Assembly (NCBI GenBank): GCA_913058405.1
Contig: CAJXRC010000012.1
Location: 1-42,666 of the forward strand
Reading direction: 5' to 3'
Length of the DNA: 42,666 nucleotides
DNA from: an uncultured Colwellia sp.
GTDB taxonomy: Bacteria > Pseudomonadota > Gammaproteobacteria > Enterobacterales > Alteromonadaceae
This document shows, piece by piece, positions 1,699 through 9,183 of this stretch. The position numbers and the translations under genes were made by a program. Each line of letters begins with the position of its first letter. The stretch's first letter is position 1. The notes under the pieces were generated by a model. It saw only the letters and a program-made list of their open reading frames with translations. It was not told where the DNA came from and searched no databases.

Positions 1699-2145
1699 AT
1701 GTCAGAGAGCTTTACTAAAGGCATGGCAAGGAATATTTATTACGGTGGAAGTATATTCTTCTTCTTAATATTCTTAGCTTTGACTTTTCACACAGTAAAA
1801 GAGATGCCCAAACGGGATAATCGAGAAAATATTACCGAAGCAGTTGAACGCGGTAAACACTTATGGGAAAAAAACAACTGTATTGGTTGTCATACGCTTA
1901 TTGGTGAAGGCGCATATTTTGCTCCAGAACTAGCAAACGTTTATGATCGTCGTGGCGGTGGCAATGAAGTAGCTTTTAAAGCTTTCTTAAATGGTTGGAT
2001 GAAAGCTCAGCCATTAAACATTCCAGGCCGTCGTCAAATGCCTAACTTCCACTTAAATGACCAAGAAATTGATGATTTAGCTGAGTTCCTTAAATGGACA
2101 TCAGAGCTAGATGACAATAATTGGCCACCAAACATTGAGGGGTAG
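1699..2145 (+). CDS. norC: Nitric oxide reductase subunit C (cytochrome c)
   Basis: This 148-residue protein is the small subunit of cytochrome-c-dependent nitric oxide reductase, which passes electrons from periplasmic carriers to NorB. An N-terminal membrane anchor lies at about residues 13-33. The heme c site is C61-I-G-C64-H65, followed by the family signature TLIGEGAYFAPEL, and Met114 in RRQMPN is the probable axial ligand. Length and motif order match NorC. SD AAGGA (1688-1692) precedes the ATG. norB starts three bases after the stop, so the two are one operon under the FNR-type box at 1548. Confidence 0.96.
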   Translation: MSESFTKGMARNIYYGGSIFFFLIFLALTFHTVKEMPKRDNRENITEAVERGKHLWEKNNCIGCHTLIGEGAYFAPELANVYDRRGGGNEVAFKAFLNGWMKAQPLNIPGRRQMPNFHLNDQEIDDLAEFLKWTSELDDNNWPPNIEG

Positions 2146-3540
<1,395 letters not shown>

Positions 3541-3808: not shown

Positions 3809-5323
3809 ATGATGATACTTAGCTTCTTCCCTAGCTTAGCTTTAGCCGCTAATGAGGAGGTTGAACAGCAACACAGTGTTCATGAGCGAAAACTGACTAT
3901 TGATGGCAAAAATGTCACCAAGCACAGTACCAAAGTCAATGGACAAAAGTTTAAATATACCGCCACGACAGGTACTCAACCTGTATGGGATGAAGAAGGC
4001 AATCCAATCGCAAGTTTGTTTTATACTTACTATCAGCGCAGTGATGTAAAAGATCGTGCTAAACGGCCATTACTTATTTCTTTTAATGGTGGACCTGGCT
4101 CTGCTTCTGTATGGATGCATGTAGCTTATACTGGTCCTAGAGTGCTGAATGTAGACGATGAAGGATATCCATTACAACCCTATGGTGTGAAGACTAACCC
4201 CTATTCAATTCTAGATGTTGCAGATATCGTTTTTGTTAACCCGGTAAATACTGGCTACTCACGTGTATTACCTGGTAAAGACGGAAAAATGCCAAGTAAA
4301 GAGCAGCAGAAAAAAATGTTCTTTGGCGTAAATGCTGATATCGACTATTTAGCAGAGTGGCTTAATACTTTTGTAACGCGCAATAATCGCTGGCGTTCAC
4401 CTAAGTATCTTATTGGTGAAAGCTACGGCACCACACGTGTTTCAGGTTTAGCGAAAGAGCTACAAGAACGTCAATGGATGTATGTTAATGGTGTGATTTT
4501 AGTTTCGCCAACCGATATTGGTATCAAACGAGATGGCCCGGTAAAAGCGGCAAACAGGTTGCCTTATTTTGCTGCTGCCGCTTGGTATCACAAAGCCTTA
4601 ATCCCAACACTTCAACAAAAGCCCTTAGCAGAACTACTCGCAGAAGTTGAAACCTTTACATTGAGTAAATATTTACCTGCTTTAGCTAAAGGTGGCTTTA
4701 TTTCAGCGCAAGAGAAGCAAGGTATTGCTGAGCAAGTCGCAGAATATGCTGGTTTATCGATAGAGGCAGTCATTGCTAATAATCTGGATGTTAATAACGC
4801 CTTTTTTTGGAAAGAATTATTACGTGATAGAAAACAAACTATTGGTCGTTTAGATTCGCGTTATTTAGGTATTGATAAAAAAGTCGCGGGCTCAAGCCCT
4901 GACTATAATGCTGAATTAAGCTCATGGTTACACAGCTTCACTCCGGCAATTAATTACTATTTACGTGAAGAGTTAGCCTATAAAACAGATATTAAATACA
5001 ACATGTTTGGTAACGTCCGTCCATGGGATCGTACCGGTAATAAAACAGGTGAGGGACTTCGTTCTGCCATGGCACAGAATCCTTACCTACAAGTCATGAT
5101 TCAATCAGGTTACTTTGATGGCGCAACCAATTATTTTGATGCTAAATATACTATGTGGCAATTAGACCCAAGTGGTTTGATGAAAGATAGATTGTCATTT
5201 AAAGGGTATGAAAGTGGTCACATGATGTACTTACGCCATGAAGATTTACGAGATGCTAACCAAGACATTCGTGAGTTTATCAAGCAAAGCATGCCGGCGA
5301 AAGGACAAGCCGCGAAATACTAA
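3809..5323 (+). CDS. Secreted S10-family serine carboxypeptidase-like peptidase
   Basis: The protein (504 residues from the ATG at 3809) has a hydrophobic N-terminus ending ALA|ANEE, a signal peptide. Motifs of the alpha/beta-hydrolase S10 family are present: oxyanion-hole NGGPGS (from Asn93), nucleophile Ser205 in GESYGTTR, Asp437 in SGYFDG and His471 in ESGHMMY. It probably removes C-terminal residues from peptides in the periplasm or outside the cell. The start is uncertain: there is no SD before 3809, while the frame stays open back to 3725 and encodes a basic stretch (KQKG) that would complete a normal signal peptide. SD-like GAGGA (3731-3735) precedes ATT/ATC codons at 3740/3743. A terminator follows. 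Confidence 0.88.
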   Translation: MMILSFFPSLALAANEEVEQQHSVHERKLTIDGKNVTKHSTKVNGQKFKYTATTGTQPVWDEEGNPIASLFYTYYQRSDVKDRAKRPLLISFNGGPGSASVWMHVAYTGPRVLNVDDEGYPLQPYGVKTNPYSILDVADIVFVNPVNTGYSRVLPGKDGKMPSKEQQKKMFFGVNADIDYLAEWLNTFVTRNNRWRSPKYLIGESYGTTRVSGLAKELQERQWMYVNGVILVSPTDIGIKRDGPVKAANRLPYFAAAAWYHKALIPTLQQKPLAELLAEVETFTLSKYLPALAKGGFISAQEKQGIAEQVAEYAGLSIEAVIANNLDVNNAFFWKELLRDRKQTIGRLDSRYLGIDKKVAGSSPDYNAELSSWLHSFTPAINYYLREELAYKTDIKYNMFGNVRPWDRTGNKTGEGLRSAMAQNPYLQVMIQSGYFDGATNYFDAKYTMWQLDPSGLMKDRLSFKGYESGHMMYLRHEDLRDANQDIREFIKQSMPAKGQAAKY

Positions 5324-5765: not shown

Positions 5766-6917
5766 ATGTTCAAAAAAGCCATTATATTACTGCAAGATTA
5801 CCTAAGTCACTTAGGATTTAAGGCTCAAATTCACTTTGAATTAGAAGGCTGTTATAAAATCCTGCCGAATAGTAAAAAAATTGACCTTAACTCCATTAAC
5901 CACAGACTAGCTCTGCTGGGTATCGACGGTGAAGTTGTTAATGAGTATTGGAAAAACCAATGGGAATATGTATCTTTATTTAACGGCCAATCTCCACTGA
6001 AAGAAGCAGATAATTTAGTTCGAGCTATACATCATTTGCCTAGAATATTTGCTCAACATGGTATTACGGAAACATTAATAAAACCTGTCGTTTGGTCTGG
6101 TGATCAAGGGAAATTAGCGCTAGGTTCTAGAGATATTTTCACCACAGATACTAGGGCTGTCCATATTCCTAATGCGATACAAGTTAACGTTAGTGTTATC
6201 AATAAGCAGGGCGTTAATATTATTTCCAAGGACGGCTTTGGCGAATACTTACAACAATGCTTTTTGCAAACGAGTAAAGCATGTAGCTTATTATATCTAC
6301 CTGAAGAAGAAGCTTTTGAACGTTTAAAACTCAAATCAGCCTATGGTTTATCAGCGGAGCTTTGTTCTCCTTGCGATATTTCGGGTGGTCATCAAGGCAG
6401 TATTGCGCTTTATAAGAAGCTAGGTAAGCATAATCAACAAATGGGTCAAGAGACGTTATTGTTTGATCAGCATAGTAAAACACTCGTTACCGAACAGAAT
6501 TGGCAAAAAACAGCCCGCATAGAACACAGACTAGGTGCGTCAAGTACGTCTTATAATCCACATGCTAATGTCTTATTTTCTTTGATGAATGTCGTCGATG
6601 CGATAGAGGTTTATATACAGGAAAGCTGCGTGTCAGATTTATCTTCTTCATTACAAACCATCGAATTACCTGAATCACTATATAACAGATACCAAAAAGG
6701 GATTGAAGGCGCTAAAGACTCTCTTGGCGCTATTGAACTCTTTATTCGTTGTCCTTGGTTTAGTGAACGAATCAATAAGGTGCAGCAGTTCATGCATTTA
6801 ATAAACAGTGATTGCAGCGAATCGGCTCATTTAGGCGATTTGATTAAGCAACAAATTCTCCAGAAGTATCAAGCAGGTAAAATCGCATTACCCACTAACT
6901 TTAGTCTCATTTTATAG
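5766..6917 (+). CDS. Divergent glutamine synthetase-like (catalytic-domain) protein next to ovoA
   Basis: This 383-residue protein resembles the glutamine synthetase C-terminal catalytic domain and has no N-terminal beta-grasp domain. Matching blocks: FELEG (E25, E27) for the first metal glutamates, WEYVS (E67), the helix ADNLVRAIHHLPRIFAQHG for the ADEIQ...A.RFG block, NAIQVNVSV for MHCHMSL, and RIEHR (R251, E253, R255) followed by NP (264-265) for the signature ending in ANPYL. Key positions differ: the metal and ATP-site histidines of MHCHMS are Gln139 and Asn141, and the Glu of ADE is Asn83. It is therefore probably not an ordinary glutamine synthetase. ovoA starts 10 bases after its stop, so a shared transcript is likely. 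A gamma-glutamyl ligase acting on ovothiol or a precursor is conceivable but unproven. Confidence 0.6.
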   Translation: MFKKAIILLQDYLSHLGFKAQIHFELEGCYKILPNSKKIDLNSINHRLALLGIDGEVVNEYWKNQWEYVSLFNGQSPLKEADNLVRAIHHLPRIFAQHGITETLIKPVVWSGDQGKLALGSRDIFTTDTRAVHIPNAIQVNVSVINKQGVNIISKDGFGEYLQQCFLQTSKACSLLYLPEEEAFERLKLKSAYGLSAELCSPCDISGGHQGSIALYKKLGKHNQQMGQETLLFDQHSKTLVTEQNWQKTARIEHRLGASSTSYNPHANVLFSLMNVVDAIEVYIQESCVSDLSSSLQTIELPESLYNRYQKGIEGAKDSLGAIELFIRCPWFSERINKVQQFMHLINSDCSESAHLGDLIKQQILQKYQAGKIALPTNFSLIL

Positions 6918-6927
6918 GCGGCGTTTA

Positions 6928-9183
6928 ATGAACATTAACCAATATAACGAAGTAAGCGAGCCCAAATCACCGACATTAACGGGTAATTGCATAAATAGTA
7001 AACGTGCTGAATTGAAGCGTTATTTTAAAGCAACGTGGCAGCGTTATGACTCTTTGTTTTCATTGATCAATAATGATGAAGCATATTACCAAAGGCCTGA
7101 ACCGTTAAGACATCCACTAATTTTTTACTTTGGACATACCGCCTGTTTTTATATTAATAAACTTATATTAGGTAAGTATATCGACGAGCGTATTAACCCT
7201 CAAATTGAAGCTATCTGTGCTGTTGGTGTTGATGAAATGAGCTGGGATGATCTTAATAGTGCGCATTATGATTGGCCAACAGTTGATGAAATAAGAGTTT
7301 ACAGACAACAAGTTTTCAATGTCGTTGACCGTATTATTGACACTATGTCGTTAGTATTACCGATTAAACAAAATTCACTCGCGTGGATTATTTTAATGGG
7401 CTGTGAACATGAACGTATTCACATTGAGACCTCTTCGGTGATTATGCGCATGTTGCCATTAGCCGTATTAACATCGAATGAACAGTGGCCTACTTGCCTA
7501 CAAACAGATAGCCCGCCAACTAATGTGTTAGTACCAGTAAAAGGAAGTGTTATTAATTTTGGTAAGCCAACTTCTGACGATAGCTTTGGTTGGGACAATG
7601 AATACGGAAATGCATCGGTATCGTTAAATGATTTTCATGCGGCAAAATATTTAGTATCTAATGAAGAGTTTTTGGGCTTTGTTAAGGACGGAGGTTATCA
7701 AAATAAGCTTTTCTGGACTCAAGAGGGCCAGCAATGGTTGGCATTTACTGAAGCAAAAATGCCACGGTTTTGGTTAATGCAGTCGGGTGAATATTGGCAG
7801 CGGAACTTACTAAATGAAATGCCTTTGCCCCTTGATTGGCCAGTAGAAGTTAATTATCTCGAAGCTAAAGCTTTCTGTAATTGGAAGAACAGTCTAACCG
7901 ATGAGGGCTTGACTGATAATGACTTAACCAATAAAGAGAACCAAGGCCACTATAGATTACCCTCTGAAGGTGAGTGGATAGCGCTGAGAGGGCAGGTTGA
8001 GGGAGACTTATTGTCATGGCAACAAGCACCAGGAAACATCAATAGTGAATATTTTGCGTCTTCTTGCCCAATAAATAAGTTCTCACAAGGTGATTTTTAC
8101 GACATTGTCGGTAATGTATGGCAATGGACAGAATCAGCCATTGACGGTTTTAATGGTTTCACCATTCATCCTTTATATGATGACTTCTCCACACCAACCT
8201 TTGATGGTAAACACAACCTAATTAAAGGAGGATCTTGGATCTCAACAGGAAATGAGGCGATGCAGAACTCTCGCTATGCTTTTCGTCGTCACTTTTTTCA
8301 GCATGCAGGCTTTAGGTATGTTGTGAGTAAATCTGAGAGTATTCCAAATTTAGCAGATAATCACTATGAAACTGATACTCAAGTTTGCCGACAACTTGAA
8401 AATCACTTTGAACAATTGAATTCTTTGAGTTCTTCGTTATCCGATAAAGAGCAACAACCTATAAATGAGCTGAATCAAGCTACCAATGAACAGCATTTAG
8501 CAAATAATTACTTAGAAAAACTCGCTGACACCATTATTAGAGTAATCGATAAATATAACGTTAAACCAATGTCAAAATGCCTAGATCTAGGCTGTAATGT
8601 CGGTGGTTTGAGTTTTATCTTGGCTAAGTATTTTACTACAGTTGATGCAGTAGATTTTTCTGCGAGATATATTCAATACGGCGTAAAGCTTCAACAAGGT
8701 GAATCGATACGGTATGTAATGCCTCGTGAAGGAGAGTTAATTGATTTTAAGGAGTTTACTTTAGCTACTGAATTGTATGCAGAATCAAAGAAAATTCACT
8801 TTAGCCAAGGAGACATTAGTAATTTAAAGAATATATTTGCAGGTTACGACGTTATTGTGGCACAAAATGTTTTGGAGCAAAGTTATGACCCCGCATTATT
8901 TCTAGCACACGTGCATAATCGACTTAATGCAAAAGGGCTGTTAGTGATTATTTCGGATTATCAATTTACCGAAAAAATCACAGAGAAAACTAAATGGTTA
9001 GGTGGGCAGAAAATCAATGGTGAAAATGTGACAGGGTTTGAAGCATTAACAACGTTGTTGGATAAAAATTTAACCTTAATAAATGAGCAAGAACTTACAC
9101 AAATAATTAAGACAGACACACGTCACTTTAGTGTTATTAACTCTCATTTAACAATTTGGCAGTTAAATGATAATAACTCATAG
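6928..9183 (+). CDS. ovoA: OvoA: 5-histidylcysteine sulfoxide synthase / 4-mercaptohistidine N1-methyltransferase
   Basis: OvoA begins ovothiol A synthesis by iron-dependent oxidative coupling of histidine and cysteine and ends it by methylating 4-mercaptohistidine. The 751-residue protein has all three parts. A DinB-like N-terminal domain carries the iron site: His70, and His161/His165 in HERIHIE (the HX3HXE motif). A formylglycine-generating-enzyme-like sulfoxide synthase domain spans about 200-470 (YRLPSEGEW, GNVWQWTES, GGSW, then RRHFFQHAGFRYV). A SAM methyltransferase domain starts at about 510, with CLDLGCNVGG at 551-560. ATG at 6928 is 10 bases after the GS-like gene and has a weak SD. 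The C-S lyase OvoB is not in the window. Confidence 0.95.
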   Translation: MNINQYNEVSEPKSPTLTGNCINSKRAELKRYFKATWQRYDSLFSLINNDEAYYQRPEPLRHPLIFYFGHTACFYINKLILGKYIDERINPQIEAICAVGVDEMSWDDLNSAHYDWPTVDEIRVYRQQVFNVVDRIIDTMSLVLPIKQNSLAWIILMGCEHERIHIETSSVIMRMLPLAVLTSNEQWPTCLQTDSPPTNVLVPVKGSVINFGKPTSDDSFGWDNEYGNASVSLNDFHAAKYLVSNEEFLGFVKDGGYQNKLFWTQEGQQWLAFTEAKMPRFWLMQSGEYWQRNLLNEMPLPLDWPVEVNYLEAKAFCNWKNSLTDEGLTDNDLTNKENQGHYRLPSEGEWIALRGQVEGDLLSWQQAPGNINSEYFASSCPINKFSQGDFYDIVGNVWQWTESAIDGFNGFTIHPLYDDFSTPTFDGKHNLIKGGSWISTGNEAMQNSRYAFRRHFFQHAGFRYVVSKSESIPNLADNHYETDTQVCRQLENHFEQLNSLSSSLSDKEQQPINELNQATNEQHLANNYLEKLADTIIRVIDKYNVKPMSKCLDLGCNVGGLSFILAKYFTTVDAVDFSARYIQYGVKLQQGESIRYVMPREGELIDFKEFTLATELYAESKKIHFSQGDISNLKNIFAGYDVIVAQNVLEQSYDPALFLAHVHNRLNAKGLLVIISDYQFTEKITEKTKWLGGQKINGENVTGFEALTTLLDKNLTLINEQELTQIIKTDTRHFSVINSHLTIWQLNDNNS

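Follow-up and report, generated by a model that had tools for sequence, protein, structure and literature searches.

What does a relative of glutamine synthetase (GS) do when its gene stands immediately before ovoA? We met this question in a 42,666-nucleotide contig of an uncultured Colwellia sp. (CAJXRC010000012.1 of assembly GCA_913058405.1; this whole stretch is called the window below), where a 383-amino-acid protein, which we named GSL, is encoded 10 bases before ovoA on the same plus strand (Table 1). This arrangement had been described in an original prediction made from the letters alone, and we verified the gap and both open reading frames by translation. The NCBIfam models confirmed the identity of OvoA, with 639 bits for TIGR04344 (cut-off 400) and 243 bits for TIGR04345 (cut-off 170), both domains being present. 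In our favoured reading, which argues from the fold and the kept residues and to which we give a probability of about 0.42, GSL would be an accessory ligase of the ovothiol pathway that couples glutamate to the amino group of 5-thiohistidine or ovothiol.

The linkage to ovoA was conserved in other genomes. A single scan of genome contigs, with patterns taken from one sequence, gave 34 GSL loci in Colwellia, Cognaticolwellia, Pseudocolwellia, Thalassotalea, Thalassomonas, Psychromonas, Paraglaciecola, Marinifaba and one other member of the Colwelliaceae, and ovoA lay directly 3' of GSL on the same strand in 34 of 34 (in L029 it is read in two frames). With the A1 profile we searched samples of the class, the family and the order, and relatives in other phyla are possible; these sets and that of the loci have species in common, and their counts are not additive. 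Among 395 sampled genomes of the window's family, GSL was found in 83 (21 of 52 genera) and ovoA in 121 (26 of 52 genera). Every one of the 83 GSL genomes contained ovoA, while 38 genomes contained ovoA only. In 82 of the 83, ovoA followed GSL on the same contig and strand at a match-to-match distance of 21 to 160 bases, and in the remaining genome (G700) one contig ends in GSL and another begins with ovoA. The order sample contained GSL in 9 of 384 genomes, four of them outside the family, with ovoA adjoining GSL in all four; the class sample contained it in 2 of 369. With relatedness ignored, the hypergeometric P for the co-occurrence was 5e-56. Neighbours were also surveyed in 19 of the 38 ovoA-only genomes, and six GSL queries found nothing up to an E value of 1 at their 20 ovoA loci. 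On the strength of the linkage in the loci and genomes, we rejected a chance neighbourhood. In the genomes searched, the GSL family occurred nowhere but next to ovoA, and there is good support for a role dedicated to ovothiol metabolism. Since ovoA occurs without GSL and GSL was not seen without ovoA, the pattern is that of an accessory step on the OvoA product.

A quick OvoA tree of 79 rows, with a midpoint root and only the support values of the Shimodaira-Hasegawa-like approximate likelihood ratio test (SH-aLRT), placed this linkage in its history. The presence of GSL needed 3 changes on the tree, against a mean of 18.0 after shuffling of the labels (0 of 500 shuffles as low), and one branch separates 17 GSL-less rows from 59 GSL rows and 3 further GSL-less rows. 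The tree fits one gain of GSL with two later losses in which ovoA was kept; under the midpoint root, an early presence with three losses could also account for it. Because only 3 changes are needed, the evidence is one of lasting co-inheritance with few independent origins. The Psychromonas OvoA rows nest among those of the Colwelliaceae (support modest, 83), a placement that suggests a joint move of the GSL-ovoA pair. Over the 34 loci, the median identity to the window was similar for GSL (56.7%) and OvoA (55.5%). When the OvoA proteins of the 59 GSL rows were compared with those of the 17 GSL-less rows, 164 residue columns were conserved alike (182 less 18 gap columns) and 7 differed. These 7 columns mark ancestry, since every one of them still has the GSL-side letter in the 3 rows from which GSL was lost.

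The fold of GSL had to be approached through its relatives. A Pfam search with the GSL sequence alone returned nothing up to E 1, and no credible match was found when solved structures were searched by sequence. Gln-synt_C (PF00120) was touched by 3 of 44 family members (best E 0.032) and by 1 of 28 in a smaller set (best E 0.088). AlphaFold2 gave a model with a predicted local distance difference test score (pLDDT) of 80.5 and a predicted template modelling score (pTM) of 0.85 from 28 relatives, and one with a pLDDT of 89.6 and a pTM of 0.89 from 44 more diverse relatives. Foldseek searches of the PDB gave 104 matches at E<=0.001 for the first model (best E 2.7e-11) and 119 for the second (best E 5.6e-13), and the 50 matches listed for each were all GS or GS-like ligases, among them, for the second model, gamma-glutamylmethylamide synthetase and 1-naphthylamine GS. 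The expected structural match to GS was thus found with the predicted models. The expected match to the Gln-synt_C profile fell short of the cut-off, and a direct comparison of profiles agreed weakly: a 44-row GSL profile matched a 31-row profile of GS and GS-like enzymes at E 0.0015 and 0.0009 under two column settings, while 19 control comparisons (12 column shuffles, one reversal and 6 unrelated alignments) gave E 0.088 to 0.91. In a forced global profile alignment, GSL starts at GlnA residue 108, and the N-terminal GS domain with D50 is absent. According to these models, GSL is the catalytic domain of GS alone, as the original prediction had held. Some GSL genes, in L142, L193 and genome G499, carry an insertion after about residue 40 and have an open frame of about 460 amino acids.

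We then compared the active site of GSL with that of GS, using 62 distinct GSL proteins (42 to 85% identical to that of the window) and 31 GS rows. In GS, R339 is a residue of the ATP-phosphate site, and R355 has a role as well. PMC6529630 and PMC5403932 give E129, E131, E212, E220, H269 and E357 as the metal ligands of GS, E131, N264, G265, R321 and R359 as its glutamate residues, H271 and R344 as ADP-phosphate residues, and D50 and E327 as ammonium residues. Five of the six metal ligands have invariant counterparts in GSL, namely E25, E27, E60, E67 and E253, and E198 is also invariant (62 of 62). Among the glutamate residues, the counterparts of E131, R321 and R359 are kept as E27, R186 and R255, the pairing of R186 with R321 coming from one alignment setting. 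The E.E, WE and RIEHR motifs noted earlier were all located, as E25/E27, W66-E67 and R251-I-E253-H-R255. A metal glutamate had also been thought to be replaced by Asn83, and this part did not hold. Position 83 varies among the 62 proteins (N in 52, D in 5, S in 2, Y in 2 and H in 1), and Asn83 is no lost metal ligand because E212 and E220 pair with E60 and E67, both invariant; the ligand supposed to be replaced is E60. Two findings that would have refuted the original prediction, a structure unlike GS and a lack of linkage to ovoA in other genomes, did not arise, and the broader interpretation of a dedicated ovothiol role is well supported.

We also considered whether GSL is a decayed pseudogene and rejected this, as its core is nearly invariant. 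The exceptions are genome G529, where the gene is in two pieces, and Psychromonas, where decayed remnants of another GSL copy lie 5' of the intact gene (L187, about 7870-8070; L188, about 6790-7090).

Given its strict linkage to ovoA, GSL probably adds a further step to ovothiol metabolism, and this step is perhaps the attachment of glutamate. We propose that GSL is descended from an ancestral GS by way of the catalytic domain, that it would bind divalent metals and a glutamate, and that it would use ATP to activate the gamma-carboxylate of this glutamate. The activated glutamate would then be joined to the alpha-amine of 5-thiohistidine or ovothiol A, the sulfoxide being a less likely acceptor, and the product would be a gamma-glutamyl thiohistidine, a dipeptide thiol like glutathione. 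In GS, D50 lies in the N-terminal domain, which completes the ammonium site of the neighbouring subunit; the absence of this domain from GSL would make room for an amino-acid acceptor. We favour gamma-glutamylation because of the fold, the residues retained, the loss of the N-terminal domain, a genetic dependence that runs from GSL to ovoA and not back, and two precedents. The first precedent is that relatives of GS gamma-glutamylate amines, as described in PMC5403932, PMC6529630 and PMC11335346. The gamma-glutamylamide synthetases PuuA, PauA7, GlnA3, GlnA4, GmaS and NpaA1 resemble GSL in fold and in the proposed reaction of glutamate with an amine, although they keep the N-terminal domain and the H269/H271/R344 set and serve the breakdown of amines rather than thiol metabolism. 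The second precedent is 5THNAT, an enzyme found beside ovoA that acetylates the alpha-amine of 5-thiohistidine (PMC12631010). GSL shares with it the position beside ovoA and the proposed modification of this amine, but 5THNAT is an acetyl-CoA-dependent enzyme of the GNAT type from Bacteroidota with an unrelated fold, and its activity has been measured while the reaction of GSL is inferred.

Several observations weigh against this proposal. The structural overlap of GSL with GS is moderate, with a template modelling (TM) score of about 0.55 and a root-mean-square deviation of 6.5 to 12.9 angstroms in the second list. The similarity in sequence is weak, as HHalign gave probabilities of 17 and 23% for the profile-profile match and the GSL profile matched E. 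coli GlnA alone only at E 0.03. In Pfam, MAAL_C outscores Gln-synt_C, with 5 of 44 members (best E 0.0017) and 5 of 28 (best E 0.00086), and beta-methylaspartase tops the PDB sequence matches (E 0.028, profile positions 12-81). We treated an identity as methylaspartate ammonia-lyase as chance, given that no ammonia-lyase was among the 50 listed Foldseek matches; matches to IF-5A (E 0.16) and to VP3 capsid proteins (E 0.24 or worse) were likewise rejected as chance. The phosphate site is a further point. The histidines of the GS motif MHCHMS had been predicted to be Gln139 and Asn141 in GSL, and these residues do align with H269 and H271 and are fixed in all 62 proteins. In addition, GSL residues 187-250 contain no conserved arginine for R339 or R344 in the 62 rows; the conserved basic positions there are K221, H222, a K/R at 217 (60 of 62) and a K/R at 190 (62 of 62). 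The GS rows keep H269 in 31 of 31, H271 in 30 of 31, and R339 and R344 in 31 of 31 each. Compared with GlnA (GS type I, PF00120), GSL thus has a like predicted catalytic fold and counterparts of E129, E131, E212, E220, E357, R321, R355 and R359, but differs in the absent N-terminal domain, the exchanges of H269 and H271, the arginines missing for R339 and R344, and a score below the Pfam cut-off. By alignment, the metal residues and the glutamate-paired arginines are kept, and the phosphate residues are replaced with the replacements at positions 139 and 141 fixed. With its ATP-phosphate site altered in this way, GSL is less likely to carry out a plain GS-like reaction, and the characterised gamma-glutamylamide synthetases GlnA3, GlnA4 and PauA7 keep H269, H271 and R344 (PMC5403932, PMC6529630). 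Furthermore, 5THNAT rejects ovothiol A itself as a substrate (PMC12631010), and a full-text literature search under five names of glutamyl or conjugated ovothiol returned no gamma-glutamyl ovothiol.

The replaced phosphate residues are the starting point of the alternative that survives best, namely that GSL serves the ovothiol pathway as a metal-dependent enzyme but catalyses a different reaction, which we consider somewhat unlikely. It could activate another carboxylate, for instance that of 5-thiohistidine or ovothiol, with formation of an amide, or it could catalyse an ATP-independent transfer or hydrolysis in a repurposed GS active site. The kept metal glutamates, the lack of counterparts of H269, H271, R339 and R344, and the invariance of Gln139 and Asn141, as if the site had been rebuilt, all agree with such an enzyme. 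However, GSL retains counterparts of R321 and R359, the arginines of the glutamate site, and a comparable known enzyme is not at hand.

It is unlikely that GSL is no enzyme at all but a sensor or partner that binds glutamate, ATP or thiohistidine and regulates or completes OvoA. The loss of phosphate-site residues would be understandable in such a protein, a signalling gene of the TPR-GGDEF type lies 5' of GSL in 30 of 54 loci, and OvoA functions were retained without GSL in two lineages. Nevertheless, the predicted catalytic core is nearly invariant in proteins down to 42% identity, which goes beyond the needs of binding.

Glutamate-cysteine ligases share the general fold of the GS catalytic domain and have no N-terminal GS domain, and together with EgtA they resemble the proposed GSL as ATP-dependent gamma-glutamyl ligases beside a histidine sulfoxide synthase pathway; they differ in that they belong to another family to which GSL gave no Pfam match, and in that EgtA acts before the sulfoxide synthase. 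EgtA is the gamma-glutamylcysteine ligase of ergothioneine synthesis in mycobacteria, a sister pathway whose sulfoxide synthase is related to OvoA (PMC9103826). GSL might likewise work at a step ahead of OvoA and supply it with gamma-glutamylcysteine or some other activated substrate, but we consider this improbable, as the same paper reports that E. tasmaniensis OvoA strongly prefers free cysteine over gamma-glutamylcysteine, the conserved OvoA columns are alike in the groups with and without GSL, and no EgtC-like amidase is among the annotated recurrent neighbours. Comparisons by hhalign with E. coli GshA and YbdK gave E 0.43 and 0.29, with one sequence each and thus little power.

Table 1 Features of the GSL-ovoA locus, with positions in the window, and loci with an AmtB-like neighbour.
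Feature	Position	Strand	Remarks
GSL gene	5766..6917	+	383 amino acids, ATG start; open reading frame translation, predicted fold, profile match to GS with controls
Codons E25-L26-E27	5838..5846	+	Pair with GS metal ligands E129, E131; E27 62/62, E25 61/62 and one X
Codons E60 to E67 (E-x6-E, including Q65-W66)	5943..5966	+	Pair with GS metal ligands E212, E220; 62/62 each
Codons Q139, N141	6180..6188	+	GS counterparts H269 (metal), H271 (ATP phosphate); 62/62 each
Codon R186	6321..6323	+	Pairs with GS R321 (glutamate) in one alignment setting, elsewhere in others; 62/62
Codons K221-H222	6426..6431	+	Conserved basic pair where GS phosphate arginines are lost; 62/62 each
Codons R251-I-E253-H-R255	6516..6530	+	Pair with GS R355, E357, R359; R251, E253 62/62, R255 61/62 and one X
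ovoA	6928..9183	+	751 amino acids; 5-histidylcysteine sulfoxide synthase with C-terminal methyltransferase domain; TIGR04344 / TIGR04345
AmtB-like loci			L004, L005, L008, L010, L013, L019, L030, L031, L033

The neighbourhood of the pair was surveyed in a census of 54 GSL loci with flanks against 20 ovoA-only loci, in which open reading frames were cut at the first Met and some GSL and OvoA frames were thereby lost or shortened. The median distance from GSL to ovoA was 18 bases (52 of 54 loci with both frames called), and three gaps over 350 bases are probably due to shortened ovoA frames, as in L034. The TPR-GGDEF diguanylate cyclase gene found 5' of GSL occurred at 1 of the 20 ovoA-only loci, and it overlaps GSL or stops at most 22 bases away in 14 of 29 measured pairs; this neighbour may tie ovothiol to cyclic diguanosine monophosphate (c-di-GMP) signalling. 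Its product is secreted or membrane-bound (example L002:4061-5956), and the gene is absent from the window. On the 3' side of ovoA, a pyridoxal phosphate (PLP) enzyme that has the aminotransferase fold and matches alliinase weakly was encoded at 20 of 54 GSL loci and 3 of 20 ovoA-only loci, and in 16 of the 20 its gene overlaps ovoA or lies at most 18 bases away. This enzyme (example L002:9280-10482) is nearest to GntC, VioD and PRK07324. A gene for a PatB-type C-S lyase accompanies ovoA at 11 of the 20 loci without GSL and at 0 of the 54 with it. The PLP enzyme is probably the C-S lyase of the GSL lineage and is a candidate OvoB of a lineage other than the PatB type; a close copy was not found in the window genome, where the best identity was 25%. 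An AmtB-like gene lies 3' of ovoA at 9 of 54 loci, all in Colwellia, and at some of them a GlnK-like gene goes with it, both named by inspection of the protein starts; we took this as local gene order.

Within the window, a Peptidase_S10-like gene ends at 5323, 442 bases 5' of GSL. The window genome has GS genes of its own, with 3 PF00120 matches (one complete, two partial), and GSL is outside these. Promoter and terminator scans were at chance level (11 vs 14.2 and 2 vs 2.9), PADLOC gave zero matches up to E 1, and 72,556 plasmid records gave none at E up to 0.01. At 1699-3540, a cytochrome c gene adjoins the gene of a large subunit resembling those of heme-copper oxidases, by eye a norC-norB pair. 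The contig end (1-47) holds the end of a sequencing adapter, presumably Nextera, which matches exactly over 19 bases at 29-47 on the minus strand where no match is expected by chance, and it causes the false C-terminus (SYTHLTLPTKRIV) of the open reading frame at 1-795.

GSL is therefore ordinary in fold and unusual in context and active site, and it is a specific candidate for a new step in ovothiol metabolism. Full-text literature searches, with most subscription papers and all preprints outside their coverage, gave no title or abstract on the GSL-ovoA pair. As PMC12631010 puts it, enzymes making other derivatives of 5-thiohistidine were not known before the work on 5THNAT, the processes that make ovothiol useful are little known, and finding enzymes that use 5-thiohistidine is a prerequisite to understanding them. 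A bolder form of the favoured reading, which we offer only tentatively, is that a family of GS-fold enzymes, lacking the N-terminal domain and with the phosphate site rebuilt, has evolved only for the conjugation of 5-thiohistidine or ovothiol and provides marine relatives of Colwellia with a new glutathione-like thiol such as gamma-glutamyl-ovothiol. If true, a GS catalytic domain would here function in the absence of the N-terminal domain, which in GS completes the active site. The GSL family, with its conserved active site beside ovoA, offers a direct handle on a possible second-generation thiol made from ovothiol.

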